DNA of 51,685 bases, from NCBI GenBank assembly GCA_035285325.1, contig JAYKJB010000124.1, positions 1 through 51,685 on the forward strand. The letters are read 5' to 3'. Below, one piece after another: positions 5,584 through 20,704 of the stretch. The translations under genes were made by a program, and so were the position numbers. Under the pieces are notes generated by a model. The model did not search any database. It had not been told where the DNA came from and saw nothing but the letters and a program-made list of their open reading frames with translations. The stretch is from Candidatus Sericytochromatia bacterium (GTDB lineage Bacteria > Cyanobacteriota > Sericytochromatia > S15B-MN24 > JAQBPE01). Every line of letters begins with the position of its first letter. Positions within the stretch are counted from its first letter, which is position 1.

Positions 5584-6282
5584 CTAGCGCACCGAGCGCT
5601 TGATGAAGACGTAGCCGCCCTTCTCGGCGCCCCAGACCTGCTCCCCGTTGGCGTCGTAGCCGCGGTCCCAGCTCTTGAGGGTGCTGCCCGAGACGACCAC
5701 CTCACTGGTGGCATAGGCCGCGCCATACAGTTCGGACGGGCACTCCCGTCCGACCGTGCCGCCGGCCCAGATGCCGGGCGAGGTCTGGCGCAGGACCACC
5801 GCGCAGCCCGTGCGGGGCGTGAGGTCGGCTGGCTTGAGGTCACCCAGCGGGTTGGCCTGACGCCAGGCCCCCGCATACTTCAGGACGGGTTCCGGCAGCG
5901 TGTACACCTCGGAGGCCACCCGGCCGTCCGTGCGGGGCAACAGCCGGTAAACGCGCTGGCGATAAGGCAGCTGCACCTGCTTCGACAGGGCCTGCTCGAT
6001 GTACAGCCAGGGGCCATCCTTGCGCTCAGGCCACACGCGCACCATGTGCAGGGTGACGTCACGGTAGTTTTCGGGATCGGCCAGGGCCTGATCCTTGCTG
6101 TCATAGACGCCGATCATCTTGTTGGCCAGCGCGTTGAGGGTGGCCTGGGTGGCCATGCCCTGCGCCTGCACCGTGGCTTGCCCCTTGAGCGAGGCGGTCG
6201 GGGTCGTGCCGCAGGCCGAAAGCGCGGTCAGCAGCGCAAAGAGGGGCAGGCTGCGGGTCATCGGATGGGAGAAGGTGAACAT
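5584..6282 (-). CDS. CpcT/CpeT-family (chromophore lyase fold) lipoprotein
   Basis: The 232-residue protein begins with a signal peptide and lipobox ALSAC. The mature part follows the CpcT/CpeT pattern in order: a helix LANKMIGVYDSKDQALADPENY, strand HMVRVWPE, LYIEQALS, the motif PYRQRVYRL, a Cys-containing RTGCAVVL segment, GTVGRECPS, SEVVVS, and the near-invariant DRGYDANGEQVWGAEKGGYVFIK end. In cyanobacteria this family attaches phycoerythrobilin or phycocyanobilin to a phycobiliprotein Cys; in many non-photosynthetic bacteria its role is unknown. A lipid anchor and the absence of phycobiliprotein genes here argue against a lyase job in this organism. ATG 6282 has GAGGAA upstream. It lies 21 bases after the VCBS gene and 21 before the subtilase gene. 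Confidence 0.85.
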   Translation of the reverse strand: MFTFSHPMTRSLPLFALLTALSACGTTPTASLKGQATVQAQGMATQATLNALANKMIGVYDSKDQALADPENYRDVTLHMVRVWPERKDGPWLYIEQALSKQVQLPYRQRVYRLLPRTDGRVASEVYTLPEPVLKYAGAWRQANPLGDLKPADLTPRTGCAVVLRQTSPGIWAGGTVGRECPSELYGAAYATSEVVVSGSTLKSWDRGYDANGEQVWGAEKGGYVFIKRSVR

Positions 6283-6303: not shown

Positions 6304-7602
6304 TCAGCGCTTGGTCCGCTTGGCGGCGGGGGTGCGCAGGGTAAAGACGTGAATCTGGTGCTTGTCGTAAGCGGGCGCAAAGATCTCCGGCGCGCCGTCC
6401 GCATCGAGGTCGGCCACGGCCAGCTGCCCCACCGTGCAACCGAGGTTGGCCAGGTCGATCAGCTGGTAATTCCAGTCGCTGCGGTCGGTGCTGCGCGGCG
6501 CCAGCAGGTGGACCCGCTGCGAACCGTCACCGGCCAGCAGGATCAGGGCCTTGCCGTTGGGTGCGGCCCCCGGCACCACCACTGGGGCCCCGGGAGAGGC
6601 CTGGTTGGGACCGCCGTTGCGGGTTTCGATGCCCTTGGCGATCACGTGCTTGGGCCACAGCGTGTTCTTCCAGTCCTGAGGAATTTCATAGGCAAAGGCG
6701 CCGGCCTCGAGGTTGGCCTCGTGGTTGGTCAGCACGACATCACGACGGCCGTCGCCATTGAGGTCCGCCACTTCGAGGTCGAAGGCCGAGCCGCACTTGG
6801 TATCGATCACGCGGTTGCGCCAGGTGTCGCCTTCCTGCCAGAGCACCGTGAAGCGCTTGGAGAAGAACTCGGAGGCCAGCACCTCCTCGCGGCCGTCGCC
6901 ATCCAGGTCGGCCAGGCGGAAGTGAACATCCGGGCCCTGCGCGATCACGTGTTCTTCCCAGAAACCCGCGCGGTTGCGGCCTTCGCTGAACCAGACCAGC
7001 TCACCCAGCGCAGGGCCCATCATGGGCTTCTTGGCCCGCGCCGTCAGGATGTCCAGGCGCCCATCGCCGTTCATGTCACGCCACACGGCGCGGTGGTAGA
7101 ACCAGCCGGGCTTCTTCTCGGTGACCACGCCCGGATCCGTCAGCACGCGGCTCGCCCCGCCCGCGTTCACCAGGGTCAGGGCGCCGGTCTTGCCAGGCAC
7201 CAGGAAGCCGCCGGCCACCAGATAGCCACCCGGCATGACCGAACTCGGTACCGCCTTGACCTCGTTGGGCCAGACCGCATCCTTGGTGATCAGCTCGGGC
7301 GTCAGGCTCCGGCCGGCCAGCACCGCGTCGATCCCGCGAATGCGACGCACCGCATCGCCGCCGAAAACGCCAAAGGAGCTCACGATCAGGGTGGGCTGAT
7401 TGCGCTCTTCACCTTCGATGTGCAGGAAAGCGGGGTGATCGATGGCGATCGTCGCCCGCGGTTCAGCCCGGTAGCCACGCGCCAGGGCCGACAGGTCCGA
7501 GGCGGCCGCCCGTGGGGTCGCCACCCCGGGCAAGCGCCCGCAAGCCGACGAGGCGGCCACCAGGGAGCCCAGCAAGAGCGAGGCCAGGATGGGTTTTTGC
7601 AC
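6304..7602 (-). CDS. FG-GAP/VCBS repeat lipoprotein
   Basis: GTG 7602 is chosen because a perfect AGGAGG lies nine bases upstream and it opens a signal peptide (VQKPILASLLLGSLVAASSAC, lipobox SSAC). The mature protein of about 410 residues contains at least four calcium-loop repeats of the FG-GAP/VCBS type: DMNGDGRLDI, DLDGDGREEV, DLNGDGRRDV and the degenerate DLDADGAPEI. These typically form blades of a seven-bladed propeller used for ligand or carbohydrate binding rather than catalysis. It is the second gene of the lipoprotein operon, 42 bases after the GH15-like gene, so it may help capture or present the same substrate. No enzyme motif is seen. Confidence 0.85.
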   Translation of the reverse strand: MQKPILASLLLGSLVAASSACGRLPGVATPRAAASDLSALARGYRAEPRATIAIDHPAFLHIEGEERNQPTLIVSSFGVFGGDAVRRIRGIDAVLAGRSLTPELITKDAVWPNEVKAVPSSVMPGGYLVAGGFLVPGKTGALTLVNAGGASRVLTDPGVVTEKKPGWFYHRAVWRDMNGDGRLDILTARAKKPMMGPALGELVWFSEGRNRAGFWEEHVIAQGPDVHFRLADLDGDGREEVLASEFFSKRFTVLWQEGDTWRNRVIDTKCGSAFDLEVADLNGDGRRDVVLTNHEANLEAGAFAYEIPQDWKNTLWPKHVIAKGIETRNGGPNQASPGAPVVVPGAAPNGKALILLAGDGSQRVHLLAPRSTDRSDWNYQLIDLANLGCTVGQLAVADLDADGAPEIFAPAYDKHQIHVFTLRTPAAKRTKR

Positions 7603-7644
7603 GGTCAGGAACCTCCTAGGGACAATCCGGCAGGGGCCGGCCAA

Positions 7645-9819
7645 TCACGGCGAAACGAGAGGGAGAACGGAACCCGCCGCGGCGGGACGAGACGATTGAG
7701 GGGGCAGGCTCAGGGGCACGCGGCCCTGGAAGGCCAGGCTGGTGAGCACGTACTGTGCCTCCGGCCAGCCCAGCGGAAACGCACTGGTGAAGCGGCCCGT
7801 GCGCTCGTCGAAGACCTCGCCGAGCTGCAAGGAACCGGTGGTATGGGCCTTGTCGGTGTTGCTGGCGTGCAGGCGCTTGGCCAGGGCCGTGTCGCCGGCC
7901 TGATGGGCCACCAGCGCCAGCCAGTCGGTCAGCTCGCACCAGCCCTGCGCGCCGTACCAGTCATCGCCCTCCCAGCGGCGCACGCCGCCACCGGGTTGCA
8001 GCAGGCGTTGCTGGATGCGGGCCATGGTGGCGCGGGTGATCGGGTCCTGCGGACTGACCACGCCATAGGGCCAGGTGGCGCCCAGCACCGAGGCGTCGAT
8101 GATCGGGTCGGGGCGCGTCGCGCCAGGGCGCACGCCCTTGCCCCAGTAACCCTCGGGCGCCACCACCGCCTGCACGCGCAGCGCTTCCCGCAGGCCTTGC
8201 GCGGCCCTGCGCCATTCGCCGGCCTGGGCCGAGCGACCGGTGCGATCGGCCATGCGCGCCGCCGCTTCCAGCCCGCCCACGAACGAGGCGTTGGTCAGCG
8301 TCCAGCTCTTGTCCTTGAAGGTTTCCCAGAGGTCCATGTTGGGGCCGATCAGGCCCGAGGGCGTGATCTGGGCCTGCATGAAGCGACAGGCCCGCTCGAT
8401 CTGTGGCCACCACGCAGCGATCGCCGCCTGATCCCGGCTGGCCGCCACGTAGGCATCCACGGCCGAAACCCAGTAGCCGCCCATCCACTCGGAGCCGTGC
8501 TCCCAGGCCAGGAAAGGTTTCCCGTCGCCCCGGTGGGTCACCCACCAGTCGCCGTCGGCCTTCTGGGTGCGGGCCATGAAGTCGAGGGCCGCACGCGCTT
8601 CCACGTGGTAGCCGCACAGGGCCAGGGCGCGCACGTCCACGACGAGGTCCTGGATCCAGACGTACTTGTAGGCCGGGCTGATGGTCGAGGCAGCCGCCAG
8701 AATGCCGCCCGTGTCGGCCTGCAGCTGCTTGATCACGATCAGGGCACGCCGGAAGACGGCTTCTTCCCGGGCGTCCCCGCCCGAGCGTGGGGCCCTCGCG
8801 AGGTGATCACGCCAGAAACCGGCATCGGCCTCAGCCAGCCGCGTGAAGCCCTGCCGCCGGGCGTGGGCGATCGCCGCCAGCGCGGCCTCCGGCTGGGCGC
8901 CCACGCTCAGGTAAAGGTCCTGGCTATGGCGTGCGCCCGGCGCCAGGGCCGGCACGTCGAAACTGAGCGCGCCTTCGGTACCGGCCACGCCCTGGGCGCT
9001 GCGATGGCCGCTCAAACGCCCGTCCCGCGCGTCGATCCCGGCGGCCACGGCCGGCCCCAGGGCCAACCCGGCCGCACCGCACTGATAGCCGCTCGGCTCG
9101 TCGTCGCCGGCCATGGCGGTGGCACAGCCGGCTTCGGGGTTCTGCACCAGCAGGGCCTGTTCGGCCGGGCGCCAGCTCAGGCGATCGTCGCGGCCTGTCA
9201 GGGTCAGGGCGAAATCGGCCAGCGCCATGAAGGAGCCGCCGTTCAAGGCCTCCACCCCCGTGTTTTCCAGGGTCACGCGCCGGGCGATCACGTCGACGTC
9301 GCGCACGGCCAGATCCTCGATCACCAACCGATAGCGCCCCTTGGGCTCCGCAAAGGTGGAGATGACCCGCCCCGTATCCGGCACGACGCGCTGGGACACC
9401 AGGCGCAGCTCATCGGCCCAGCGCAGGCTCCGGCCGTCGTGGAAGCCCACCGTGGCGACGCGCAAACGATTCTCAGCGTAGCTGGGCCAGAGCATGTTGA
9501 TCAGCGCGCCCGGCCGCGCGAGGCGACCGAATTCGCGCGAGACTGCGCTCATGACCCGACCATTGGAGACCTGGGAAAAGTTGGGGCACACGCCGAAAAG
9601 CCAGGAGCCAGGCCCTGACATATCGAGCCCGCTGGCGCTCATGCCCAGGCGATCGACCGGCGTGGCCTGCGCGGGGCGCAGGGGAGACAGCCCGCAAGCG
9701 CTCACCAGACTGGCGGCCAAGCCGATCCCGATCAGCCCACGGATCCATCCGAGACGGCGAGACCGGCGCCCCAGCAGGGCACCTGGTAGCTGGTTCCAAG
9801 TGGAGCGACGGTGATCCAC
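7645..9819 (-). CDS. GH15-like glucoamylase/glucodextranase lipoprotein
   Basis: This 724-residue protein has an extended N-terminus, a signal peptide and lipobox LVSAC, an N-terminal beta-rich domain (to about residue 310) and an (alpha/alpha)6-barrel domain. GH15 hallmarks are the substrate-site block YKYVWIQDLVVD (the family usually has WxRD), the general-acid block PNMDLWETFKDKSW (usually DLWEE), and a C-terminal WEGDDWYGAQGWCELTDWL region that would carry the second carboxylate. Members release glucose from alpha-glucans such as starch, dextran or trehalose; the exact substrate cannot be read. The start GTG 9819 follows a GGAAAG sequence at a somewhat long distance, so a shorter N-terminus is possible. 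It heads a four-lipoprotein operon and carries the SARP-type box found upstream of other genes here. Confidence 0.85.
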   Translation of the reverse strand: MDHRRSTWNQLPGALLGRRSRRLGWIRGLIGIGLAASLVSACGLSPLRPAQATPVDRLGMSASGLDMSGPGSWLFGVCPNFSQVSNGRVMSAVSREFGRLARPGALINMLWPSYAENRLRVATVGFHDGRSLRWADELRLVSQRVVPDTGRVISTFAEPKGRYRLVIEDLAVRDVDVIARRVTLENTGVEALNGGSFMALADFALTLTGRDDRLSWRPAEQALLVQNPEAGCATAMAGDDEPSGYQCGAAGLALGPAVAAGIDARDGRLSGHRSAQGVAGTEGALSFDVPALAPGARHSQDLYLSVGAQPEAALAAIAHARRQGFTRLAEADAGFWRDHLARAPRSGGDAREEAVFRRALIVIKQLQADTGGILAAASTISPAYKYVWIQDLVVDVRALALCGYHVEARAALDFMARTQKADGDWWVTHRGDGKPFLAWEHGSEWMGGYWVSAVDAYVAASRDQAAIAAWWPQIERACRFMQAQITPSGLIGPNMDLWETFKDKSWTLTNASFVGGLEAAARMADRTGRSAQAGEWRRAAQGLREALRVQAVVAPEGYWGKGVRPGATRPDPIIDASVLGATWPYGVVSPQDPITRATMARIQQRLLQPGGGVRRWEGDDWYGAQGWCELTDWLALVAHQAGDTALAKRLHASNTDKAHTTGSLQLGEVFDERTGRFTSAFPLGWPEAQYVLTSLAFQGRVPLSLPPQSSRPAAAGSVLPLVSP

Positions 9820-9865: not shown

Positions 9866-9897
9866 AGTATGCAGCCCAGGGGTTTCCCGGGGGTTCC
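9866..9897 (-). promoter_or_regulatory. SARP-type direct repeat and -10 of the GH15 operon
   Basis: On the minus strand GGAACC (9897-9892) and GAAACC (9886-9881) are exactly 11 bases apart, and a -10-like CATACT (9871-9866) begins 15 bases after the start of the second half-site. The predicted transcript start is about 40 bases before GTG 9819. Confidence 0.6.
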
Positions 9898-9986
9898 AAA
9901 AGACCAAGGTTAGGTTAAGGATGAATTAAAGATCGTTGAACCCCATCTCAAATAATTACCAAAGCTTAAGCTCTGGTTCCAGGCGT

Positions 9987-10018
9987 GGAACCGGGACGGA
10001 ACCGGGCCGTCAGACAAC
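9987..10018 (+). promoter_or_regulatory. SARP-type direct repeat and -10 upstream of the 10070 gene
   Basis: GGAACC occurs at 9987 and 9998 (11-bp period; the nine-base core GGAACCGGG is identical in both halves), with GACAAC at 10013-10018 as the -10 candidate. An inverted GGTTCC also lies at 9975-9980. The AT-rich stretch 9905-9970 upstream could act as an UP element. The first half-site is also followed at 15 bases by CGTC, which resembles an ECF sigma promoter, but this is not kept in the other copies. Confidence 0.65.
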
Positions 10019-10069
10019 CCCTCCAGAGAGCAGCGCCCGAGAGACGCGCTGAAGAGAGAGGAACACCCG

Positions 10070-10795
10070 ATGCCCACCGCCCCCTTGCCCGAGGTCACCT
10101 TGCCTGCCCGGCGTCGCCCCGTCGAACGCCTGCGCGTGGGTCCGCCATCGAGTCCGCCCAAGGTGCCCGTCTACTACGATCACCAGCAAGGCACCCTGGT
10201 CCGCCAGGGCAGCGGCCTGCCCGTCACCTGGGAAGAATGGAACAATCTGGACCGCCACCAGCGGCAAGAAGCGCTGCGCCTGGTGCCGGCCGCCAAGCGC
10301 GCCAGCATCGATGCGGCCATCACCATGCGGGCCCGGGCTCGCGCCTGGGTCGGTGAAGGGCTCGAACCCGAAGCACGCGACCGTTCTTTCCGTCTGCGCT
10401 TGCGCCATGCGGCCCGCCTGGCCCGCAAGACGTTGGGCGGCAGTCACGCCACGGCCGCCACGCTGGCGGAGCTGGCCGGTGGCATCGACCCCCAGCAAGC
10501 CCCGCGGGACACCCGCGCCAAGGGGCTGACCATCGCCCGCCTCGGCGAGGCGATCCGGCGCGGCTTGCTGCGCCCCGGCATGGTGGTCCACGCCTCGCAA
10601 AATCCCCGGGCCATTGCCGCGGGCGAATCGGCCCAGCCGGTCTGGCTGACCTATCTGGGTCCCGACCGCCAGCACGGGCCGCGGTTTGCCGATACGCAGA
10701 ACGATGCCTGGACGATCGAAGCCCTGGCCCGGGCCTATGAGAGCCACCAGATCGACTGGATCGCAGACCCTTATGCACCGGTGTCTGCCGGCTGA
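10070..10795 (+). CDS. Hypothetical protein, possible degenerate papain-like domain
   Basis: The 241-residue protein has no signal peptide or membrane segment and starts with a Pro/Arg-rich, probably disordered, tail. The middle (about 50-130) is helical and very Arg/Ala-rich. The C-terminal third contains LLRPGMVVHASQNP, then PVWLTYLG, which resembles the PGD...HVGIYLG pattern of NlpC/P60 or CHAP peptidases but lacks the catalytic Cys and His. This similarity is weak and the function is unknown. ATG 10070 has AGAGAGGAA upstream. It is preceded by a SARP-type box and followed by a terminator, so it is a single-gene unit next to the putative regulator gene. Confidence 0.75.
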   Translation: MPTAPLPEVTLPARRRPVERLRVGPPSSPPKVPVYYDHQQGTLVRQGSGLPVTWEEWNNLDRHQRQEALRLVPAAKRASIDAAITMRARARAWVGEGLEPEARDRSFRLRLRHAARLARKTLGGSHATAATLAELAGGIDPQQAPRDTRAKGLTIARLGEAIRRGLLRPGMVVHASQNPRAIAAGESAQPVWLTYLGPDRQHGPRFADTQNDAWTIEALARAYESHQIDWIADPYAPVSAG

Positions 10796-10813
10796 ACGTT
10801 TCGGGTTCAACCT

Positions 10814-10848
10814 GGGGAGAGGGTCTCTCTCTCTCTCTTCCTCTCCCC
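10814..10848. repeat. TC microsatellite inside an inverted repeat
   Basis: GGGGAGAGG (10814-10822) and CCTCTCCCC (10840-10848) flank a (TC)7 tract at 10824-10837. A pyrimidine-rich stretch also follows the gene ending at 15365. Confidence 0.6.
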
Positions 10849-10854
10849 ACACCA

Positions 10855-10888
10855 GCGCCCCTGGACCTGCCGTCCGGGGGCGTTTGGT
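10855..10888 (+). terminator. Terminator after the 10070 gene
   Basis: A GC-rich stem CGCCCCTGGAC / GTCCGGGGGCG with loop CTGCC is followed by TTTGGTT. Confidence 0.75.
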
Positions 10889-10931
10889 TGCTCGCATCAG
10901 GAAAGCGCGCCCTGCACAGGAAGGGACGGGC

Positions 10932-13900
10932 GTGCGCGGGTATAACCGGGGCGTGACCCTTGATGCCTGGATCATCCCGAGCAAGCTCAGCCCGCCCGCC
11001 TTGCCGCCGGACATCCTCCCGCGCGAGGACCTCTGCGCGACGGCGCGTGAGCCTGCGGTGACGATCCTGCAAGCCGGCCCCGGTGGCGGCAAGACCCTGA
11101 CCATGGCCCTGCTGGCCCAGCGCATCGGGGGTGAGCTGGCCTGGGTGTCGCTGGACCAGGACGACTGCGACCCGACCACCTTGTTTGCTTATCTGGTGGC
11201 TGCCATTCGCGCCCACGTGCCCCCCTTCGGAGACGAGGTGCGGGCCATGGCGGGGCAGGGCGCGCCCGCCAAGGCAGTCTGGTCGCGGCTGTTCCAATCA
11301 TTGGGGGCGTATGATCCGCCGGCCCTGACGATCGCCCTGGATGATGTGCATGGGCTGATCCAGCAGACGCCGGAGGTGATCAGTGGCCTGACCTACTTCC
11401 TCGACAAGCTGCCGCGCGGCGTGCGCCTGCTCCTGAGCACGCGCAAACGTTACCCGGGCGCCCTCGGCCGCCTGTCCGCCGCCGGCACCGTGCGCGTGAT
11501 CGATGAGGCGCGCCTGCGCTTCAACCCGGCCGAAGTGGACGCCTACATGCGGGCCCGGGTGCCCGGCCTGGCCGATGACCCGGCCTTTCGCGAGCGGGCG
11601 CACGCGCTGGAGGGGTGGCCGCTGGGCCTGGATCTGCTGACGGCGGACCCGGGCCGGGCGATCGCCCTGGGCGGCAGCGGTGGCAGCGACCCGGAAATCG
11701 AGGCCTACATCGCGGAGGAACTCTATCAAGGCCAGCCGGCCCTGCGCCGCAGTTTCATGCTGCGCGCGGCCATTCTGGAGGAACCGACGGCCGAGGCCTG
11801 CCGCGAGGTGCTGCAGCTGGCGGACACGGACACCACGCTGGCCGCGCTGGAGGCCGACCACCTGGTCACGCGGCGCGGCGAGGCCTACGTCTTTCCGAAC
11901 CACTTGCGTCAGTTCCTGCGCACCGAGGCCGAGCGCGTCGTGCCGGCGGAGGAACGCCGCGGCTGGCATCGCTGGGCGGCCGAACATTACCGCGAACAGG
12001 GGCGGGACGAGCTGGCCATCCCGCACCTGATTGCCTGTGGCGACTGGCGCGCCGCCGGCCAGGCTTGCCGGGAAAGCTTTCCACGCATGCGTCACGATGG
12101 TCGCCTGGCCCTGATCGGTCGCTGGCTGGACGCCTTTCCCGAGGCGGCCTTCGACCAAGACCCCTACCTGCTGGTCTGGCACGGCTCGGCCCTGGCCCGC
12201 GACGGCCGTCTGCCAGAGGGCCTGGCCGCCTTCGATCGCGCCCTGACGAGCTTCACCGCCCGAGAGGACCGGGCTGGCCAGTTCAAGGTGCGGGTGCGTC
12301 AGGCCAACATCGCGCTGGCACGTCAGGAGGCGCGCGACTACGCCAACTACCTGCTGGCGGCCCAGGCGCTGGCGACGGACGGCGAGCCCGAAGACCTGGC
12401 CGACCTGGCCTTGATTCGCGGGCATGCGGCCGAGCAAAAGGGCGATCTCGAGGGCTTCCGCAACTTCAACGAGCAGGTGCTGGCCCAGCGGGACGACGGC
12501 GGACTCGAACTCGCCGCCAGCCGCTACATCGCGCATGTGAACCTGTACACCTACCAGCTGCATCGCGGCGCCTATCGCGAGGCCCACGGGCATCTGGAAC
12601 GGGCGATCGCGATCGCCGATGAACGCAATTTCTACCCCTACATGCTGGCCGCCAAGCTGCAGCGCATCCACCTGTGGGCCTGCGAGGGCAAGGTGGATGA
12701 GGCCGAATCGGCCCTGAAAGCCCTGCCGGCTGGCTGGCGCGAGGTGCTCGACTGGCACGACCTGGCCTGTGCCCACGCCGTGGCGGGCAACATCGCGATG
12801 CTGAGGGGACAGTGGCGAGAAGCCGATGATCGACTCAAGGCCTCCCTGAACCTGTTCGATCGGATCGGCCTGCAGGAAGGCAAGAAGATCCCGCTGGAAC
12901 TGCAACTGTGGGTATGCGTTCGGCGCCACACGCCGCAACGCATGTCGGCGCTGCTGGCCGAGGCCAACGTGCCGGCCGGCAAGACGATCTACGACCTGGC
13001 CCTGCTGCTGCCGCGGGCGCGGGCCGCGCTGCAGCTGGACGATGCGGCCGGAGCCCTGGCGCTGGCGGGCGAGGCCGTCACAGGCCTGACGCCTCTGAAT
13101 GCGGCCCGGCACCTGGCCCATGCGCACGCCATCATCGCGGCCGCCCGGCTGCGCCTGGGGGAACGGGGGGCCGCGCGGGCGGCCTTCGAGCAGGCCGAAC
13201 AGCTCTTGCAATCCCGGCAGATCGCCTTCCTGCGCAACATGGATGCCGAACTGTGGAACGAGCTCTCCACCCTGGGCGCCGCCGCGCCGGTGGCCAGTGC
13301 GGCGGCCGCCGTGGCGCAGCAGGTGCGCACCGCCCCCTCGCTCGCCGAGACGGAACAGCAAGCCGGCGGCACGGCCCCCTTGGGCCTGACGCTGCGCATG
13401 CTCGGTGGCTTCGAAGCCCGCGTGGACGGCAGCGCGATCGACCGCTGGCCACGCCAGAGCGCCAAGCTGATCCTGGCCTCGCTGGCGATCTACCCGCGCG
13501 GCCTCACGCTGGTGGAACTGGCCGAACACGTGGGAGGAGGGGAAGCCTCCAACCTGACGCGCTTCAAGGTGGCCGTCTCGACCCTGCGTCGCATCCTGGA
13601 ACCGGAGGTGGAACACGGCCGCGAATCCCGCTTCGTGCAGTTCGCCGACGAGCGTTACTTGCTGGCCCCGGACGCGCTGGCCAGCGTCGACGTGCGGGCC
13701 TTCGAGAACGGGCTGACCACCGCCGAGCGCCTGTGGGCCGAGGACCCCAACGCCGCGGCCGGGCGGCTGGCCGAAACGCTGGCGCTCTACCGGGGCAATC
13801 TGCTCGATTGCGCGCCCTTCAACGACCGCTTCCTGCCGGAACGCGAGGCCCTGCGCTTCAAGGCCTTGCAGGGCTTCCTCAGGCTGGCGGCCTGGCAGAA

Positions 13901-14123
13901 AGCCTCGCCAAACGCCGCGGAGCAAACGCTGACGCGCCTGCTCGGGCTCATGCCGTGGGAAGAGGAAGCGGCCCTCGCCCTCATGCGGCACCACGCGGCG
14001 ATCGACCGACCGGATCGGGTCCGACAGGTCTATTGGGACTGCCGCAAGGCCCTCAAGGCGGCCTTCGGCGGCACACCCTCCGAGGAGTTCGAGCAGGCCT
14101 ATCAGGCCCTGCTCAAGGCCTGA
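10932..14123 (+). CDS. MalT-like STAND regulator with C-terminal SARP (winged helix + BTAD) output
   Basis: The 1063-residue protein begins with the MalT-type segment WIIPSKLSPP, followed by a P-loop (GPGGGKT, about residue 49) and Walker B (LTIALDDVH), then the winged-helix and arm regions of a STAND NTPase. Residues about 430-800 are alpha-helical and TPR-like. From about residue 817 to the end lie an OmpR/SARP winged helix (LRMLGGFEARVDG, WPRQSAKLILASLAIYP, LVELAEHV) and a bacterial transcriptional activation domain. The domain order is the reverse of AfsR-type SARPs. GTG 10932 has AGGAAGGGA upstream. GTG 10953 is an alternative: TATAAC lies six bases before it and would give a leaderless transcript. 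It is flanked by genes with 11-bp direct repeats, the expected SARP target. Confidence 0.88.
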   Translation: MRGYNRGVTLDAWIIPSKLSPPALPPDILPREDLCATAREPAVTILQAGPGGGKTLTMALLAQRIGGELAWVSLDQDDCDPTTLFAYLVAAIRAHVPPFGDEVRAMAGQGAPAKAVWSRLFQSLGAYDPPALTIALDDVHGLIQQTPEVISGLTYFLDKLPRGVRLLLSTRKRYPGALGRLSAAGTVRVIDEARLRFNPAEVDAYMRARVPGLADDPAFRERAHALEGWPLGLDLLTADPGRAIALGGSGGSDPEIEAYIAEELYQGQPALRRSFMLRAAILEEPTAEACREVLQLADTDTTLAALEADHLVTRRGEAYVFPNHLRQFLRTEAERVVPAEERRGWHRWAAEHYREQGRDELAIPHLIACGDWRAAGQACRESFPRMRHDGRLALIGRWLDAFPEAAFDQDPYLLVWHGSALARDGRLPEGLAAFDRALTSFTAREDRAGQFKVRVRQANIALARQEARDYANYLLAAQALATDGEPEDLADLALIRGHAAEQKGDLEGFRNFNEQVLAQRDDGGLELAASRYIAHVNLYTYQLHRGAYREAHGHLERAIAIADERNFYPYMLAAKLQRIHLWACEGKVDEAESALKALPAGWREVLDWHDLACAHAVAGNIAMLRGQWREADDRLKASLNLFDRIGLQEGKKIPLELQLWVCVRRHTPQRMSALLAEANVPAGKTIYDLALLLPRARAALQLDDAAGALALAGEAVTGLTPLNAARHLAHAHAIIAAARLRLGERGAARAAFEQAEQLLQSRQIAFLRNMDAELWNELSTLGAAAPVASAAAAVAQQVRTAPSLAETEQQAGGTAPLGLTLRMLGGFEARVDGSAIDRWPRQSAKLILASLAIYPRGLTLVELAEHVGGGEASNLTRFKVAVSTLRRILEPEVEHGRESRFVQFADERYLLAPDALASVDVRAFENGLTTAERLWAEDPNAAAGRLAETLALYRGNLLDCAPFNDRFLPEREALRFKALQGFLRLAAWQKASPNAAEQTLTRLLGLMPWEEEAALALMRHHAAIDRPDRVRQVYWDCRKALKAAFGGTPSEEFEQAYQALLKA

Positions 14124-14259
14124 GATCGGGTTCCATCGGGGCAGTCGGCGGTTCCGGTGCGGCGAGGACGTCTCCGCGCTCTTGAACGGGACAGAACCCA
14201 GCGGTCTTCAAGCAACCTTGGTTTTCATTAACAAGCACTTAACGATCAGACTTCCCGCT

Positions 14260-14291
14260 GGAACCGGGACGGAACCGGGGGGCGGCATAAC
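14260..14291 (+). promoter_or_regulatory. SARP-type direct repeat and -10 upstream of the 14334 gene
   Basis: GGAACC at 14260 and 14271 (11-bp period) is followed by CATAAC at 14286-14291. The two half-sites are identical over nine bases, and the 20-base core matches that at 9987. ATG lies 42 bases after the -10. Confidence 0.65.
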
Positions 14292-14333
14292 CTCCTTACG
14301 CGATGCAGGTTCGCGCCCCAGAGAGGATCCGCC

Positions 14334-15365
14334 ATGACCACCGTCCCGACTCGCCCCACCGCCCCAACACCGGCACCGGTCCGCACGGGCGCCATGCTGC
14401 TCCACGGCAGCCGTGGCGAGGGTGTGCGCGAACTGCAAGCGGCGCTCAAGGCCCTGGGCTTCAACGCGGGGGACGTCGATGGCGTGTTCGGCGAACGGAC
14501 CGGCATGGCGCTGCGCGACTTCCAGGTGTCCCACGCCCTCCCGGCGGATGGCGTGGCCGGTCCCCAGACGCTCAAACTCCTGAACGCCAAGCTGGCCGCC
14601 CGTCAGAAGGAAGAGACCAGCATCGACACGCGTTCCACCTGGAGCGGTGTCACGGGCAACGTCTACATGAACTTCGGCCACCGCCTGGTGGACGATTCCT
14701 TCGTGCATCTCTCGCGGGACAAGCGGCTGGTCTGGAGTGACACCGGCACGCTCGTCAGCCCCCACCAGTGGGCGGCCATCGGTAATTTCCAGCGCGAACA
14801 TTTCCTGAAACAGGTTCCCGTGGCCGAGCGTGAAGCCGTGATCAAGAGCCTGATGGGCGGCAGCGCGGCCAAGATCAAGCGCGAGGCCCCGCCCACCCCG
14901 GCGGTGGGTCGCAACCAGCCCCCCATGCCCGGCAGTTCGGCCGACCAGCAAATGAAGAACATGCTGGAGGTGGCCAAGCGCCACTCCGTCGGCAAGCGCC
15001 CGGATGGCTGGTGCTACATGCACGTCTGGAACTACATCGAGCGCTCGGGCTACGGCAACATGCCGGGTGAGGGCATCCCGGACTCGCATGCCACTTATGC
15101 CAAGCAGTTCGCCGAGTATGCGGATGCCAACCTGGCGCGGCTGGGGCTGCGCAAGCTGGCCCTCGATAATCCCTACAAGGCGCCCCCGGGTGCGATCGTG
15201 GTCGTGCGTCCCGGCACGCCTGGCACGGCTCACCCGATCGCGGGTGACATCGCCATCGCCACCGGCCAGGGCTGGTTCGCCAACGGCGGCGAGATGGGCT
15301 ACGGTGGGCCCGGCAACTTCCCGCCCGGCAACAAGCTGGTGCTCGGCATCTACGTGCCGGCCTGA
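14334..15365 (+). CDS. Peptidoglycan-binding, papain-like (CHAP/NlpC-type) protein without signal peptide
   Basis: The 343-residue protein has a Thr/Pro-rich N-terminal tail and then a classical PG_binding_1 domain (about 22-82: GSRGEGVRELQAALKALGF, DGVFGERTGMALRDFQ, GPQTLKLL). A middle segment (100-165) contains NFGHR and a QWAAIGNFQ helix. The C-terminal domain carries GWCYMHVWNYIE, PPGAIVVV, AHPIAGDIAIATG and NGGEMGYGG. Cys, His and a downstream polar residue are placed as in CHAP/NlpC peptidases, so cell-wall peptide or amide hydrolysis is plausible but unproven. No Sec signal is present, so export would need lysis, a holin or an injection-type apparatus. The start has GAGAGGA upstream. 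The C-terminal domain is shared with the gene at 22131-23093. Confidence 0.8.
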   Translation: MTTVPTRPTAPTPAPVRTGAMLLHGSRGEGVRELQAALKALGFNAGDVDGVFGERTGMALRDFQVSHALPADGVAGPQTLKLLNAKLAARQKEETSIDTRSTWSGVTGNVYMNFGHRLVDDSFVHLSRDKRLVWSDTGTLVSPHQWAAIGNFQREHFLKQVPVAEREAVIKSLMGGSAAKIKREAPPTPAVGRNQPPMPGSSADQQMKNMLEVAKRHSVGKRPDGWCYMHVWNYIERSGYGNMPGEGIPDSHATYAKQFAEYADANLARLGLRKLALDNPYKAPPGAIVVVRPGTPGTAHPIAGDIAIATGQGWFANGGEMGYGGPGNFPPGNKLVLGIYVPA

Positions 15366-15486
15366 TTCCTTTTCTTCTTCCTCTCCACTCCTCTCTCTTC
15401 ACACACCGCCGAGCCCTGGACCCGCCCCAAGCGGAACCGGGGTTTGGTGGTGTTTTTGGGGGGCATGAAGCCACTGACGCGTGGCG

Positions 15487-16065
15487 CTACCAGCTTCCGT
15501 AAGGCTGATTGAGCGCGCTCAGGCGATAGCCACCGGGCGTGGCCGTCAAGGTCGAGAGCGAGAGCGGCTCCACGTCGAGGAAGGCGGCCCTGCGCGTGCG
15601 CACGCCCAGCGCCGAGGCGACCAGGCAGCGAATCGGGCCGGCATGGCAGACCACCACCAGGTCTTCAGCCGGAAAGGCCGCGGTGGCCCGGGCGATCGCC
15701 CGCGTGACGCGGCGTCGCACATCCCCGAGGTGTTCCCCACCGGGCGGACGTCGGCGATCGAAGGCTTCCAGATAGGCCGCCGCCTCAGGGTCAGAAGCCA
15801 GCACGTCCGCCCAGGTGCGGCCCTCCCAATCGCCGTGGCTCTGCTCCCAAAGATCTGCCTCCTCGACCCACCGGGTCGCCCCGAGCCAGCCTGCCGTCTC
15901 GCGCGCGCGTCGGGCCGGGGAGACCAGCCAGCGGGCCTCAGGCCCCCAGGGCATCGCTCCGACGGCCGCGGCGGCCGGCAGCTCGGCCGCCACATCGAGG
16001 CGCCCCACGATCCGGCCGCGGTACGCCGCCTCGATCGGCGCATGGCGAATCAGAAACAGGCGCAT
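15487..16065 (-). CDS. cobC: Histidine phosphatase, alpha-ribazole phosphatase-like (CobC)
   Basis: The 192-residue protein is a histidine phosphatase of the phosphoglycerate mutase branch. It has the N-terminal LIRHAPIE motif (RHA instead of the more usual RHG), Arg in SPARRARETA, the acidic WEQSHGDWEGRTW block, and the second catalytic His in VVVCHAGPIR. It is the last gene of a cobalamin nucleotide-loop operon; its ATG overlaps the cobS stop codon (TGATG), so translation is probably coupled. The likely reaction is removal of phosphate from alpha-ribazole 5'-phosphate or from cobalamin 5'-phosphate. Sequence alone does not separate it from other family members; the assignment rests on context. 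Confidence 0.85.
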   Translation of the reverse strand: MRLFLIRHAPIEAAYRGRIVGRLDVAAELPAAAAVGAMPWGPEARWLVSPARRARETAGWLGATRWVEEADLWEQSHGDWEGRTWADVLASDPEAAAYLEAFDRRRPPGGEHLGDVRRRVTRAIARATAAFPAEDLVVVCHAGPIRCLVASALGVRTRRAAFLDVEPLSLSTLTATPGGYRLSALNQPYGSW

Positions 16066-16925
16066 CAGGGCCGCCAGACAGGGGCACCCAGGACCACCGC
16101 GGGTTCGATCGCCAGCCAGGCCCCGAGGGCGAGCAGGGCGACCAGCTCGCCGACCTGCTGGGAGGCCCCGAGCACGTCCCCGGTCACGCCCCCGACCTGC
16201 TCCCGCGCGTAACGATCCATGCCCAGCGCGCTCAGCAGGCACAGTGCCAGCACGCCCAGGGCCGCGGGCAGGGGCAGGCAGAGCAGTCCCAAGAGCAAGG
16301 CGGTCGCCAGCGCCACGAGGGGTTCCCGCCAGGAGAGCCCGACCGTGTCGGCCCCCAACCCCTCCGTGCGGGCCCGCGGTGAGCGCCAGAGCATGCCGAC
16401 GATGCCGGCGCGGCTGGCGGCATGCACCGCGACCAGCGCCGGGAGGGCCACCGCGAGCGGCAACCCGGCGATCGCCTGAATGCGCAGCAACAGGGCCCCG
16501 ACCAGTGCCAGCACGCCATACGTCCCGAGCCGCGAATCCTTCATGATCTCCAGCTTGCGGGCCACGCTCATGCCGCCGCCAAAGGCGTCGGCCACATCCC
16601 CCAGGGCATCCTCATGAAAAGCGCCCGTCAGCACGGCGGCACCCAAGGCGGCCAGCGTCGCGGCCAGCAGGGGAGGATAGTAGCCGCCCGCCAGGACGAA
16701 CATGCCCCCGACGGCAGCCCCGACCAGGCCCCCGACCAGCGGGTAATAGCGGCTGGCCGCGGCGATGTCGGCCGGCGTGACGTCGCCGGCCAGACGCAGC
16801 GGCACGCGCGTCAGGAAGATCACGGCGATCGCCATGCGACGCGGCTCCTCCTGCCAGAAGGGGCGCTGGATCGGTGCCACGGGCACGACCACGGCCGCAT
16901 CGGTCGGCGCAGGTTCCGGGTTCAC
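16065..16925 (-). CDS. cobS: Adenosylcobinamide-GDP ribazoletransferase (cobalamin synthase)
   Basis: The 286-residue integral membrane protein joins adenosylcobinamide-GDP and alpha-ribazole (phosphate) to make adenosylcobalamin (phosphate). Family motifs are seen: FLTRVPL near the N-terminus, RYYPLVGGLVGA, the Mg-binding-type HEDALGDVADAFGGG, KDSRLGTYG, and SRAGIVGMLW. Hydrophobic stretches support several membrane segments. GTG 16925 is used because GGAGG lies seven bases upstream; GTGA overlaps the stop of the upstream BluB-CobT gene, and the 3' end overlaps cobC. About 30 Pro/Ala/Val-rich residues precede the usual start, which is slightly long for the family. Confidence 0.95.
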   Translation of the reverse strand: MNPEPAPTDAAVVVPVAPIQRPFWQEEPRRMAIAVIFLTRVPLRLAGDVTPADIAAASRYYPLVGGLVGAAVGGMFVLAGGYYPPLLAATLAALGAAVLTGAFHEDALGDVADAFGGGMSVARKLEIMKDSRLGTYGVLALVGALLLRIQAIAGLPLAVALPALVAVHAASRAGIVGMLWRSPRARTEGLGADTVGLSWREPLVALATALLLGLLCLPLPAALGVLALCLLSALGMDRYAREQVGGVTGDVLGASQQVGELVALLALGAWLAIEPAVVLGAPVWRP

Positions 16926-18727
16926 GTCTGGCCTCCGGCCGCAAGCGGCTCTTCGAGGTTGGCTTCCTCGTAAGTCGATACCTCGGCCGAGACCCGCACG
17001 GCGGCCTTCAACAAGCCGAAGGCCAGGGCCGCGCCGCTGGCCTCGCCCAGACGCAGGCCCCAATCGAGCATGGGCACCAGTTCCAGGGCCGCGAGCACGC
17101 GGTCATGCGCGGGCTCCGCGGAGCGCGTGGCGGCAATCAGGGCCGTACGGCAGGCCGGTGTGCGCGCCGCCGCGATCAGCGCGGCCGCCCCGACAATGAA
17201 GCCGTCCAGCAAGACCGGCACCCCACGCGCCGCCGCCGCCTCGATCGCCCCGACCATGCCGGCGATCTCATAGCCACCCAGACAGCGCAGGGCCTCGCTG
17301 GGATCGAGCCGGGCGGCCGCCCCGTGCAGGGCCAGCGCGCGGGTCAGCACCTCCTGCTTGCGGGCCAGGCCCCGCGGCCCCAGCCCGGCGCCGGGCCCCA
17401 GCACCTCGGTCGGCGTCAGCCCCAACTGCACCGCCACCAGCGCCGAGGCGGCGGTGGTGTTGCCGATGCCCATCTCGCCCAGCACCAGCAGATCCAGCTC
17501 GGGCAAGCGCGTGACCGTTTCAGCCCCGGCGGCGATCGCCTGGGCCAGCTCGGCCGGGGTCATGGCCGCTTCCTGGCAGAAATTGCGGGTGCCGCGCCGC
17601 ACCTTGGCATCCAGCAGCGCATCGGCCGCGCCGAAATCATGGTCGACGCCGAGATCGGCCACCAGCAGACCGGCGCCGGTTTCGCGGGCCAGCGCGTTGA
17701 CCACGCCGCCGCCACTGAGAAAGCGATAGACCATCATGGCAGTGGCCTCGGGCTTGTAGGCACTGACGCCCTCCTCGCGCGCCACGCCGTGATCGCCGGC
17801 CATCACCACGATCCAGGGCGCCCGCAGGGTCGGCCGCATGCGCCGCTGCACCTCGGCCAGCTGCAGCGCCAGCGCTTCCAGCCGCCCGAGTGCGCCGCGC
17901 GGGGTGGGCAGGCGGCGAAAGCGGCGACGCAACAGGTCAGCCCCCAGCACGCCCTCGGCCGGATCGTCCGGCGGATGCCAGGAGCAGGGGGCCGGGGCCA
18001 GCACGACCGGCAGGTCCGGTGCGGGCAGGCCGGTCGGAGGGGGGGGCGCCCCGGCCGGCGCCTCGGCGAAGGGTCGCGCCACGCCCCAGCGATCCGCAAA
18101 CACCAGCGAATCCAGCGGCAGGCTCTCGCGCCAGCCGACCCGCCCCAGCAGCGGACTGGTCGGCAGCTCGACCGGATGGCCCAGGCACAGGTAGGCCACC
18201 GGCACCACCCCATCGGGCAGACCGAGCAGGGCCGCGATGTGCGCAGGTTCCATCAGGCTCATCCAGCCAACCCCCAGGCCCTCGGCCCGTGCCGCCAGCC
18301 AGAGGTTCTGCACGGCCAGGCAGGTGCTGTAGAGGTCCATCTCACGCATGGTCGCGCGCCCGAGCACATGCTCGCCGCCGCGGCCGCGATCGCACGTGAC
18401 CAGCAGATTCACCGGCGCATCCAGGATGCCCTGCAGCTTCAGCGCCTGGTAGGCGGCCTGGCGATCGCCGGCATGCAGCTGCGAGGCGCGGGCGTTGACG
18501 GCGCGAAAGTGGTCATAGACCTCCTGACGCAGGGTCGGGTCTTGCACCAGGATGAAGTTCCAGGGCTGCATGCGCCCGACCGAAGGGGCCTGGTGGGCGG
18601 CCTCCAAGATGCGCCAGAGCGTGGCCTCCGGCACCGGGTCGGGCCGATAGGCGCGCACGTCGCGACGCTCGCGGATGGCGCGATAGACCGCCTCGCGTTC
18701 GGCGGACGAGAAGTGAGGGTCGTGCAT
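16922..18727 (-). CDS. bluB/cobT: BluB-CobT fusion: DMB synthase and DMB phosphoribosyltransferase
   Basis: The 601-residue protein joins two enzymes of lower-ligand synthesis. Residues 1-215 are BluB-like, a nitroreductase-fold enzyme that breaks down FMNH2 to 5,6-dimethylbenzimidazole: AIRERRDVRAYRPDPV, HQAPSVGRMQPWNF, GVGWMSLMEP and CLGHPVELP. A Pro/Ala-rich linker follows. Residues from about 245 to 590 are CobT: MAGDHGVAREEGVSAYKPE, FLSGGGVVNALA, LLVLGEMGIGNTTAASAL and the catalytic-Glu segment LRLGEASGAALA. CobT moves phosphoribose from nicotinate mononucleotide to DMB. Fusion would pass DMB directly to the next enzyme. It follows an unknown gene by six bases and overlaps cobS by four, so all four genes appear to form one operon. 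Confidence 0.93.
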   Translation of the reverse strand: MHDPHFSSAEREAVYRAIRERRDVRAYRPDPVPEATLWRILEAAHQAPSVGRMQPWNFILVQDPTLRQEVYDHFRAVNARASQLHAGDRQAAYQALKLQGILDAPVNLLVTCDRGRGGEHVLGRATMREMDLYSTCLAVQNLWLAARAEGLGVGWMSLMEPAHIAALLGLPDGVVPVAYLCLGHPVELPTSPLLGRVGWRESLPLDSLVFADRWGVARPFAEAPAGAPPPPTGLPAPDLPVVLAPAPCSWHPPDDPAEGVLGADLLRRRFRRLPTPRGALGRLEALALQLAEVQRRMRPTLRAPWIVVMAGDHGVAREEGVSAYKPEATAMMVYRFLSGGGVVNALARETGAGLLVADLGVDHDFGAADALLDAKVRRGTRNFCQEAAMTPAELAQAIAAGAETVTRLPELDLLVLGEMGIGNTTAASALVAVQLGLTPTEVLGPGAGLGPRGLARKQEVLTRALALHGAAARLDPSEALRCLGGYEIAGMVGAIEAAAARGVPVLLDGFIVGAAALIAAARTPACRTALIAATRSAEPAHDRVLAALELVPMLDWGLRLGEASGAALAFGLLKAAVRVSAEVSTYEEANLEEPLAAGGQT

Positions 18728-18733
18728 GAAAAC

Positions 18734-19360
18734 CTAGAAGGTGGGCAACTTGTCGCCGAGCCCCTTGACCCAGCGGCGCACGCTGTTGGGGTCGGTTTTG
18801 ACGGCATCATACGCCTGGCTCATCCGCTGCACCAGGGCCAGTCGGTCGAAGACCGGCCGGAACGGCACGAACTGATAGACGAAGTCCGCCGTCTGCAAAA
18901 CCACGTGGGCCGGGCCATCCAGCGCCCTGGCCGTGCGGCCGAGGTCGCGGCTGGCGGCGCGCACCAGCGGTCCATTGGAGAACTGTTCCAGATTCTTGCG
19001 GGCCGCCACCACGCCCTGGTTGTGGCGCACCACGCCGGCCCGCCCCTCACGGGCCATCCAGGTGCGGGCGCGGGAGAGCCCGAGGCGATCGCCAGCGCCA
19101 TCCATCGAAGGGCTCATGCGACGCATCAGGCGCTCCTGGCGCTGCCAGCCGGCTTCCACCCAGCCCACCTTGCGACCGATCTCGCGCACGCTGGCGGCAG
19201 GAGGCAGCAGGGCGATCGGCTTGACGGCCTGCTCGGCCGCCCGAGCGGCCACGGGCGCCAGTTCCTCGCCGACCTCCCGGCTCGTGCGCACCGCGGCCTG
19301 GCGAGCAGTCGGCATCGCGTGCTTGACCGTGCTGGCGACTGCTTTCGAAAGGATCGACAT
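18734..19360 (-). CDS. Hypothetical protein heading the cobamide operon
   Basis: The 208-residue protein is basic, mainly helical, and has no signal peptide or convincing membrane segment. Its N-terminus (MSILSKAVASTVKHAMPTAR) resembles in composition that of the divergent gene at 19799 (MPITSQVVRQLAAKPTAQ), both Ala/Arg/Thr-rich and amphipathic. A distant relationship or shared targeting is possible. No known domain is recognised. ATG 19360 has GAGGAA upstream. The stop lies six bases before the BluB-CobT start, which has a poor ribosome site of its own, so the two are probably translated from one message. A SARP-type repeat lies at 19418-19449. Confidence 0.75.
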   Translation of the reverse strand: MSILSKAVASTVKHAMPTARQAAVRTSREVGEELAPVAARAAEQAVKPIALLPPAASVREIGRKVGWVEAGWQRQERLMRRMSPSMDGAGDRLGLSRARTWMAREGRAGVVRHNQGVVAARKNLEQFSNGPLVRAASRDLGRTARALDGPAHVVLQTADFVYQFVPFRPVFDRLALVQRMSQAYDAVKTDPNSVRRWVKGLGDKLPTF

Positions 19361-19417
19361 GGCAGGGATTCCTCACACACCACCCCGGGCGCCACCCGAC
19401 CAGGGCTCACATGAAAG

Positions 19418-19449
19418 GAGATGGTCAGCCCGGGTTTCACCCCAGTTCC
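19418..19449 (-). promoter_or_regulatory. Degenerate SARP-type repeat upstream of the cobamide operon
   Basis: On the minus strand GGAACT (19449-19444) and GAAACC (19438-19433) are 11 bases apart, and CATCTC (19423-19418) stands at the same distance as the -10 in the other copies. It is the weakest of the five copies. Confidence 0.45.
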
Positions 19450-19667
19450 AGCAGGAACATCTCCTCATTAACATCGGATTAATTTCCGGAAGTCGATCTG
19501 GATGCGCCGTTAGCGGCCAGGGATCCGTGCTGACGGGCCCAGTTCAGATTTGGGCCTTCAAAATCCCAGCATCAGTGACCGAAAATCAGTCCCCAGCTTG
19601 AATTGAGACCCTATCGCCGCGTCTGAAAATCAATTTAAACAAAACACAAAGTCGGACGGGCGAGTTC

Positions 19668-19699
19668 GGAACCGACCCGGAACCAGGGCGATGGAAACA
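19668..19699 (+). promoter_or_regulatory. SARP-type direct repeat upstream of the 19799 gene
   Basis: GGAACC at 19668 and 19679 (11-bp period) is followed by the weak -10 candidate GAAACA at 19694-19699. The 438-base divergent region 19361-19798 holds this box, the one at 19418-19449 and an AT-rich block at 19466-19490; no gene is seen in it. Confidence 0.55.
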
Positions 19700-19798
19700 G
19701 AAGGTGGTTGGTCGTTCACCGACCGTGTGTGTGAGAACCAGCTTCGCCCCCGCGCCGGTGGCGCCCGCGAAGCGGATGTGAGAGAAGGAATCCGACCC

Positions 19799-20704
19799 AT
19801 GCCCATCACCAGCCAGGTTGTCCGCCAGCTCGCCGCCAAGCCAACCGCCCAGGCTGCCCGCCAGGCGGCCAAGCGCACCAGCCAGGCGGCCACCCGCGTC
19901 GCCGGGGATGAGTTGGCCACCCGCAGCGCCACCAAGGTGGGTCGCACGGTCGCGGCCAAGGCGGCGGCCCAGGCCGTCATGGCGCCGCCGGTGCTGACCA
20001 AGAAGGCCACCCAGCTGCTGACCGGCGCGGGCGTCACCAAGCTGGTCGCCAGCGAAGCGCTGACGGCCGGCGATCTGGTCTTCCAGCAAGCCATCAAGCA
20101 GGGCCTCAAGCAAACGGACGCGCTGGCCCTGGCCAGCCAGCGCATCGCGGAAAAGCTCGGCACCGCCGGCGTGAACACGGAGCTGGTCACGGCGCTCACC
20201 AACGGCCTGCGGCCGGCCACGCGCGCCCAGCTGGGCAAGTCGGCGGCAGCCGGACGCGTCACGCGCAGCGTCAAGAAGGCCGCCGGCAAGACCAAGCCGG
20301 TGGTGAATCCCGTCCCCGGCAAGCCGGTCCCCGTGGCCCCGCAACCGCCTGTGGCCACCAAGCCGGCTCCCAAGGCACCGCCCGCGGCCAAACCGATCGC
20401 CAAGACGCCCCCCCGGCCCACCGGCACCCCCGCCCCGATCCGGCGGGCCGCCGAAGACCTGGCCCTGCTCGGCACCGCCGCCTACGAGGCCGGTCGGCTC
20501 ACCCGGCGGGCGGCCGATGCCACCTACCGCGCTGGGCAGGCCACCCGCGCCTACGTCGCGGAGGGCGGCATCACCCGGAGCTGGCAAGGCGCCTGGGCCC
20601 GCCACGACCAGGCCTATCAGACCATGCAGCGCGAACTCACGGAAACGACGCAGGCCGCCGGCCAGTGGGTGAAGCAGCTGGCCACGCGGGTGATCAGCGG
20701 CTAA
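19799..20704 (+). CDS. Hypothetical Ala/Lys-rich helical protein
   Basis: The 301-residue protein is strongly basic and rich in Ala, Thr, Lys and Arg. Residues 1-160 look like a series of amphipathic helices, residues 165-215 are a Pro/Lys-rich linker (many KPxPxAP steps), and residues 220-301 return to helix (RRAAEDLALLGTAAYEAG, QGAWARHDQAYQTMQREL). It has no signal peptide and no recognised domain. Such composition fits a nucleoid-associated, structural or exported effector-like protein, but none can be shown. ATG 19799 has AAGGA upstream. It is divergent from the cobamide operon and carries its own SARP-type box and terminator. Confidence 0.7.
   Translation: MPITSQVVRQLAAKPTAQAARQAAKRTSQAATRVAGDELATRSATKVGRTVAAKAAAQAVMAPPVLTKKATQLLTGAGVTKLVASEALTAGDLVFQQAIKQGLKQTDALALASQRIAEKLGTAGVNTELVTALTNGLRPATRAQLGKSAAAGRVTRSVKKAAGKTKPVVNPVPGKPVPVAPQPPVATKPAPKAPPAAKPIAKTPPRPTGTPAPIRRAAEDLALLGTAAYEAGRLTRRAADATYRAGQATRAYVAEGGITRSWQGAWARHDQAYQTMQRELTETTQAAGQWVKQLATRVISG

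Follow-up and report, generated by a model that had tools for sequence, protein, structure and literature searches.

A 51,685-nucleotide contig of Candidatus Sericytochromatia bacterium (the window) carries five pairs of direct repeats around a gene with a SARP-type output domain, which raises the question of whether these pairs are the promoters of one local regulon and of which proteins read them. The window is contig C124 of a genome of 3.83 Mb in 138 contigs (G000). Genome statistics come from searches with patterns and profiles, for which reversed patterns served as controls, and genes were called with a simple codon-usage script.

Phased Repeats Around the SARP Gene

The initial annotation described GGAACY-N5-GRAACC upstream of five genes, in both orientations and at a constant distance from -10-like hexamers. 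All five sites were recovered with 0 mismatches, all in intergenic DNA (Table 1). The 15-base offset between the start of the second half-site and that of the hexamer was exact at 5 of 5 sites, and the second base of the hexamer was A at all of them. Plausible start codons followed at leader-like distance, at 9819 and 19360 on the minus strand and at 10070, 14334 and 19799 on the plus strand. A whole-genome scan yielded seven exact matches in 3.83 Mb, five of which were within this 9.8-kb stretch (Poisson P ~1e-13). The two remaining matches were in coding DNA, one at C21:87770 and the other in galE at C58:7372, and the reversed pattern gave 3 matches genome-wide.

At SARP promoters, direct repeats are 11 or 22 bp apart, and the 3' repeat is ~8 bp from the -10 (PMC10936776); a poor or absent -35 is a further feature of such promoters. 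The geometry proposed for the five sites agrees with this description: their repeats are one turn (11 bp) apart, the 3' repeat is ~8–9 bp from the -10, and none of the five promoters has a sigma-70-like -35.

Table 1. Promoter elements and genes of the window.
Feature	Position	Strand	Elements or product	Profile E value
Composite promoter 1	9866–9931	-	TTAATTCATCCTTAAC 9914–9929; GGAACC-N5-GAAACC 9881–9897; -10 CATACT 9871–9866	5e-10 (loci searched)
Operon downstream of promoter 1	7645–9819, 6304–7644, 5584–6282		GH15-type glucan hydrolase operon	
Composite promoter 2	9956–10023	+	TTACC/TTAAG 9956–9970; GGAACC-N5-GGAACC 9987–10003; -10 GACAAC 10013–10018	3e-9 (loci searched)
First gene after promoter 2	10070–10795	+	ORF, 241-aa protein	
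Candidate regulator	10953–14123	+	STAND ATPase of the MalT-like kind, SARP output domain at the C-terminus; probable start GTG 10953	
SARP output domain of regulator	13341–14120	+	Winged helix and BTAD	
Composite promoter 3	14227–14300	+	TTAACAAGCACTTAAC 14228–14243; GGAACC-N5-GGAACC 14260–14276; -10 CATAAC 14286–14291	1e-10 (genome)
Gene after promoter 3	14334–15365	+	Protein with peptidoglycan-binding domain and C-terminal domain	
Composite promoter 4	19414–19485	-	TTAATCCGATGTTAAT 19467–19482; GGAACT-N5-GAAACC 19433–19449; -10 CATCTC 19423–19418	3e-8 (loci searched)
Probable operon under promoter 4	15487–19360	-	Helical protein 18734–19360; nitroreductase-CobT fusion 16922–18727; CobS 16065–16925; histidine phosphatase from 15487	
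Composite promoter 5	19633–19701	+	Distal TTAAA only (19635); GGAACC-N5-GGAACC 19668–19684; -10 GAAACA 19694–19699	3e-6 (loci searched)
Gene under promoter 5	19799–20704	+	301-aa alanine-rich helical protein	

A Composite Promoter of Two Genomes

The period of 11 assigned to the repeats stood, whereas the hexamer GGAACY/GRAACC proved too narrow and the general half-site is GNAAC. Relaxed to GRAAC-N6-GRAAC without other elements, the pair gave 42 matches vs 31 controls in the genome scan, which is near chance, and was dropped as evidence on its own. The GNAAC pair and the -10 were correctly placed in the initial annotation, but a second repeat with a period of 11, TTAAY/TTAAC, had been overlooked upstream of them; once it was included, the signal became genome-wide. 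The sites described initially are thus the downstream half of a larger composite promoter, which consists of TTAAY-N6-TTAAC, 16–17 bases, GNAAC-N6-GNAAC, ten bases and a -10 of the form NA(T/C)AAC. The distal TTAAY starts 32/33 bp and the proximal TTAAC 21/22 bp before the first GNAAC. Both copies were found at promoters 1, 3, and 4 of the window; at promoter 2 the proximal copy is accompanied by a degenerate distal copy, and at promoter 5 the distal copy alone is present.

Approximately 22 composite promoters were counted in G000 and 12 in Cyanobacteria bacterium RYN_339 (G001), a metagenome-assembled genome and the single relative of the same family that was compared, with 0–1 matches for the reversed-pattern controls. 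TTAA-N17/18-GNAAC-N6-GNAAC had 14 matches in G000 and 9 in G001, with reversed controls of 0 in both, and the corresponding TTAA-N28/29 pattern had 13 and 7, with reversed controls of 0 and 1, respectively. When the first gap was left free between 6 and 36, almost every match fell at 17, 18, 28, or 29; when the gap between the half-sites was left free between 1 and 16, 14 of 15 matches in G000 were at exactly 6. Moreover, in 27 promoters aligned on the second half-site, position +16, which is the second base of the -10, was A without exception and position +18 was A in 22. Neither position had been used in site selection, and for the 17 sites of G000 alone the A at +16 has P ~4e-16. The -10 box NA(T/C)AAC is therefore fixed independently of the repeats.

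A sequence-only profile (R1) was built from 26 of these promoters. Of the 150 top-ranked first-look candidates scored in each genome, 23 in G000 and 12 in G001 matched it with E < 0.005; most matches listed were training sequences. Those that were not, at C26, C76, C12:23870, and C113 of G000 and C41 of G001, again had A at +16 and were located just 5' of gene starts. In 11 further genomes, drawn from the same order, class and phylum, the lowest E value among the best 150 candidates of each was 0.025, which is not significant.

The five sites of the window therefore belong to a class of composite SARP-type promoters that is spread across the genome. A regulon of just five promoters, as first proposed, does not describe this class, given that ~17 further composite promoters, each with or expected with the second repeat element, are on other contigs of G000. 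A hairpin in the 5' leader (GAGCGGCGGTTCCGCTC) was also considered; its mean folding energy was just 1.6 SD below that of shuffled sequences, and it is hence not claimed.

The Candidate Regulator and Its Paralogs

The SARP-type output of the gene amid the sites was confirmed by profile and by fold, both of which pointed to AfsR and EmbR. Residues 911–1053 of the 1055-residue regulator matched the BTAD family (PF03704) with an E value of 5e-11 and 43.6 bits, the cut-off being 22.1. A profile built from the C-terminal 260 residues of 15 paralogs matched, along the entire domain, solved structures that have an OmpR-like winged helix followed by a BTA domain (8hvr, E 6e-11; 2fez, E 4e-7); a search of solved structures with the single sequence gave no match, so that the profile alone succeeded. 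The AlphaFold model (pLDDT 93) matched the fold of AfsR (8hvr) with E 1e-10, and the top six Foldseek matches were AfsR and EmbR. The N-terminal half of the regulator is MalT-like (NCBIfam model, E 2e-43). The SARP domain is therefore behind a MalT-like ATPase and not at the N-terminus, its usual position, which was not taken as essential. On the same strand, at 10941–10955, a TATAAC without a GNAAC or TTAAC element ends 6 bases 5' of the probable GTG start, where a leaderless transcript is possible.

Eight SARP-like genes, including that of the window, were found in G000 and ~thirteen in G001. A composite promoter at 57545–57623 on contig C75 of G000 is within ~1.7 kb of the SARP paralog there, and another is within that distance of its ortholog on C361 of G001 (orthology support 96/98). 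The 6 others of the 7 remaining SARP-like genes of G000 had no composite promoter nearby, most composite promoters were far from any SARP gene, and proximity of the two counted by locus was not significant (P ~0.15). The SARPs are tied to the GNAAC pair mainly by the conserved adjacency of C75/C361 and by the cluster of five sites. V-[AT]-[VI]-S-[TY]-L recurs in the recognition helices of all three SARPs that adjoin composite sites, but three cases do not suffice for claiming a code. An unbiased search for recurring hexamers with an 11-bp period around the other SARP paralogs revealed no paralog-specific motif, as GC-rich coding repeats swamp it.

The Upstream Element

Similar to a Pho box, the upstream element consists of TTAAY direct repeats with a period of 11. 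Alone, TTAAY-N6-TTAAY had 63 matches in G000 vs 4 reversed controls. An excess of TTAAY-N6-TTAAC was also seen in families of the order in which the composite is absent (18:0 in G003 and 19:0 in G007), and the element is thus most likely read by a distinct and older regulator. No phosphate transporter permease (PstC) was found above its cut-off in G000 or G001, and the sampled genes downstream of TTAAC sites were not phosphate genes. Seven typical OmpR-type (Trans_reg_C) proteins are encoded in G000, of which none is beside a composite site. In G000 and G001 as well as in further genomes of the order, copies of TTAAY-N6-TTAAC without GNAAC are widespread, as in a larger regulon of its own, and some of them are just 5' of CATAAG -10 boxes (loci L063, L067, L069, and L073).

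Proteins Proposed to Read the Composite Promoter

The best explanation of the GNAAC pair, and one that we regard as probable, is that it is bound by SARP-type activators. Two SARP-type protomers would sit side by side on GNAAC-N6-GNAAC, on one face of the DNA and over the position of the missing -35, and would hold the vegetative RNA polymerase on the weak NA(T/C)AAC -10, as AfsR does. Two turns further upstream, the Pho-box-like TTAAY-N6-TTAAC would be occupied by another winged-helix regulator, whose most likely class is OmpR/PhoB. With two regulators at one promoter, transcription is proposed to integrate two inputs. The MalT-like SARP of the window would be the likeliest binder of its five neighboring sites, and paralogs such as that of C75 may serve other composite sites. 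Seven other SARP-like genes are present and the C75 gene also adjoins a composite promoter, and control of all five sites by the window regulator is therefore an inference. Binding and activation are likewise predictions, as are the identities of the paralog that acts at a given site and of the protein on TTAAC.

Regulators of the OmpR/PhoB type also use repeats with a period of 11 near the -10, those of PhoB being ~10 bp 5' of it (PMC1906773), and could therefore bind the GNAAC pair themselves, with the SARP gene as a bystander. Although seven typical Trans_reg_C proteins are available for this role, none of the seven response-regulator genes has a composite site beside it, whereas one SARP gene has the five sites around it and the members of an orthologous SARP pair each have an adjacent site. 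Significant matches to the composite are, moreover, confined to the two genomes in which the SARP clade is expanded, and we consider a response regulator on GNAAC unlikely. Somewhat less likely still is a single SARP operator of four protomers, in which all four half-sites ([T/G]NAAC, spaced 11, 21–22, and 11 bp) would be read by one factor instead of two. TTAAC and GTAAC differ by a single base, SARPs are known with both 11- and 22-bp spacings (PMC10936776), and the SARP of C114 and its ortholog on C289 each have TTAAC repeats ~2 kb away; however, TTAAY-N6-TTAAC is at many promoters without GNAAC, and in families of the order without the GNAAC pair it is enriched alone.

An alternative (ECF) sigma factor might also recognize the sites, GGAAC being a frequent -35 motif of this group. 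The half-sites are, however, 21 or 10 bases from the -10, compared with an ECF spacing of ~16, both of them are present at the exact period of 11, and the -10 is of the vegetative type; an ECF promoter is thus very improbable.

For the preferred reading, SARP-type activators on the GNAAC pair, a wider role can be put forward tentatively, with chances slightly short of even: the phased Pho-box-like and SARP pairs may act as a genome-wide coincidence detector, in which an expanded MalT-SARP family shares or divides the GNAAC half-sites and controls envelope-directed hydrolases.

Genes Downstream of Composite Promoters

The first or second genes after composite promoters include those of M48, M14, and M23 peptidases, a phospholipase-D-like protein and an alpha/beta hydrolase, as well as a LuxE-type synthetase operon and two DUF3370 proteins transcribed from divergent promoters. 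The window contributes a peptidoglycan-binding protein, the GH15 glucan hydrolase operon and the cobamide operon. Many products have no known family; in the window, the 241-aa protein had no match in Pfam or NCBIfam, and the 301-aa protein had no family match. From this partial list, the theme of the regulon appears to be envelope-directed and secreted hydrolases. The product of the gene at 14334 and that of a gene on C113, which also follows a composite promoter, have a common C-terminal domain (67% identity over 124 aa). Related genes that kept the composite promoter are at three small-protein loci in G001 and, in both genomes, encode repeat-rich lipoproteins.

In the operon of promoter 4, the nitroreductase-family domain fused to CobT is possibly BluB-like and its neighbors encode CobS and a histidine phosphatase; the assembly of the cobamide lower ligand is gathered in this one operon. 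A search for a riboswitch of this operon in Rfam found none.

Five loci (L218–L221 on C118, C252, C368, and C96 of G001, and L200 on C117 of G000) have similar composites followed by CTTGTGAGCGGC and then by stretches of >160 to 1000 nt in which no gene was called in that direction. They may represent long leaders or encode small proteins or RNAs. At three loci of G001 (L222, L223, and L225 on C12, C13, and C41), a composite promoter precedes a member of one family of small basic proteins (MREKKTNPGYVKTRLFGEVEKAL...), and all three genes are truncated at a contig end, a pattern suggestive of a repeated element.

Comparison With Known Systems

SARPs are known mainly from Actinobacteria, where they activate antibiotic clusters. 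If the proposed reading is true, SARP-type recruitment of RNA polymerase would serve general control in the cyanobacterial phylum, together with the phased box of a second regulator. Profile R1 provides a sequence rule for predicting the targets of uncharacterized SARPs in uncultured lineages, and the composite promoter places numerous genes of unknown function together in a single regulated group.

The TTAAY repeats, with their period of 11, resemble the cyanobacterial Pho box of SphR, CTTAACCT with a 3-bp linker (PMC1906773). Different from that box, they are in two copies and not three, ~47 and 58 bp 5' of the -10, and the sampled downstream genes are not phosphate genes. The proposed meeting of a SARP and a PhoB-class regulator at one promoter is similar to the AfsR-PhoP cross-talk of Streptomyces, as cited in PMC10936776; in that cross-talk the binding sequences overlap, whereas the two elements described here are separate and phased. 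Similar to the window regulator, SARP-LAL proteins of the PimR type join a SARP to a large ATPase and have direct repeats with a period of 11 (PMC5930380). PimR, however, acts on a single target gene, its heptamers are CGGCAAG, and its operator lies clear of the -35.

A close parallel in promoter architecture is afsS of Streptomyces coelicolor, where AfsR occupies a pair of 11-bp repeats that cover the -35 region (8hvr; PMC10936776). Both systems have a SARP output domain, recognized here by profile and fold, in a regulator with an NTPase and a repeat part, as well as two one-turn direct repeats that cover the -35 region and end 8–9 bp before a weak -10. Different from AfsR, the SARP domain of the window regulator is C-terminal, its sensory half is MalT-like, its predicted half-site is GNAAC, and it is outside Actinobacteria. 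Different from AfsR-afsS, the promoters described here have a second repeat pair at a fixed distance upstream and are in front of many targets, mostly hydrolases and proteins of unknown function.
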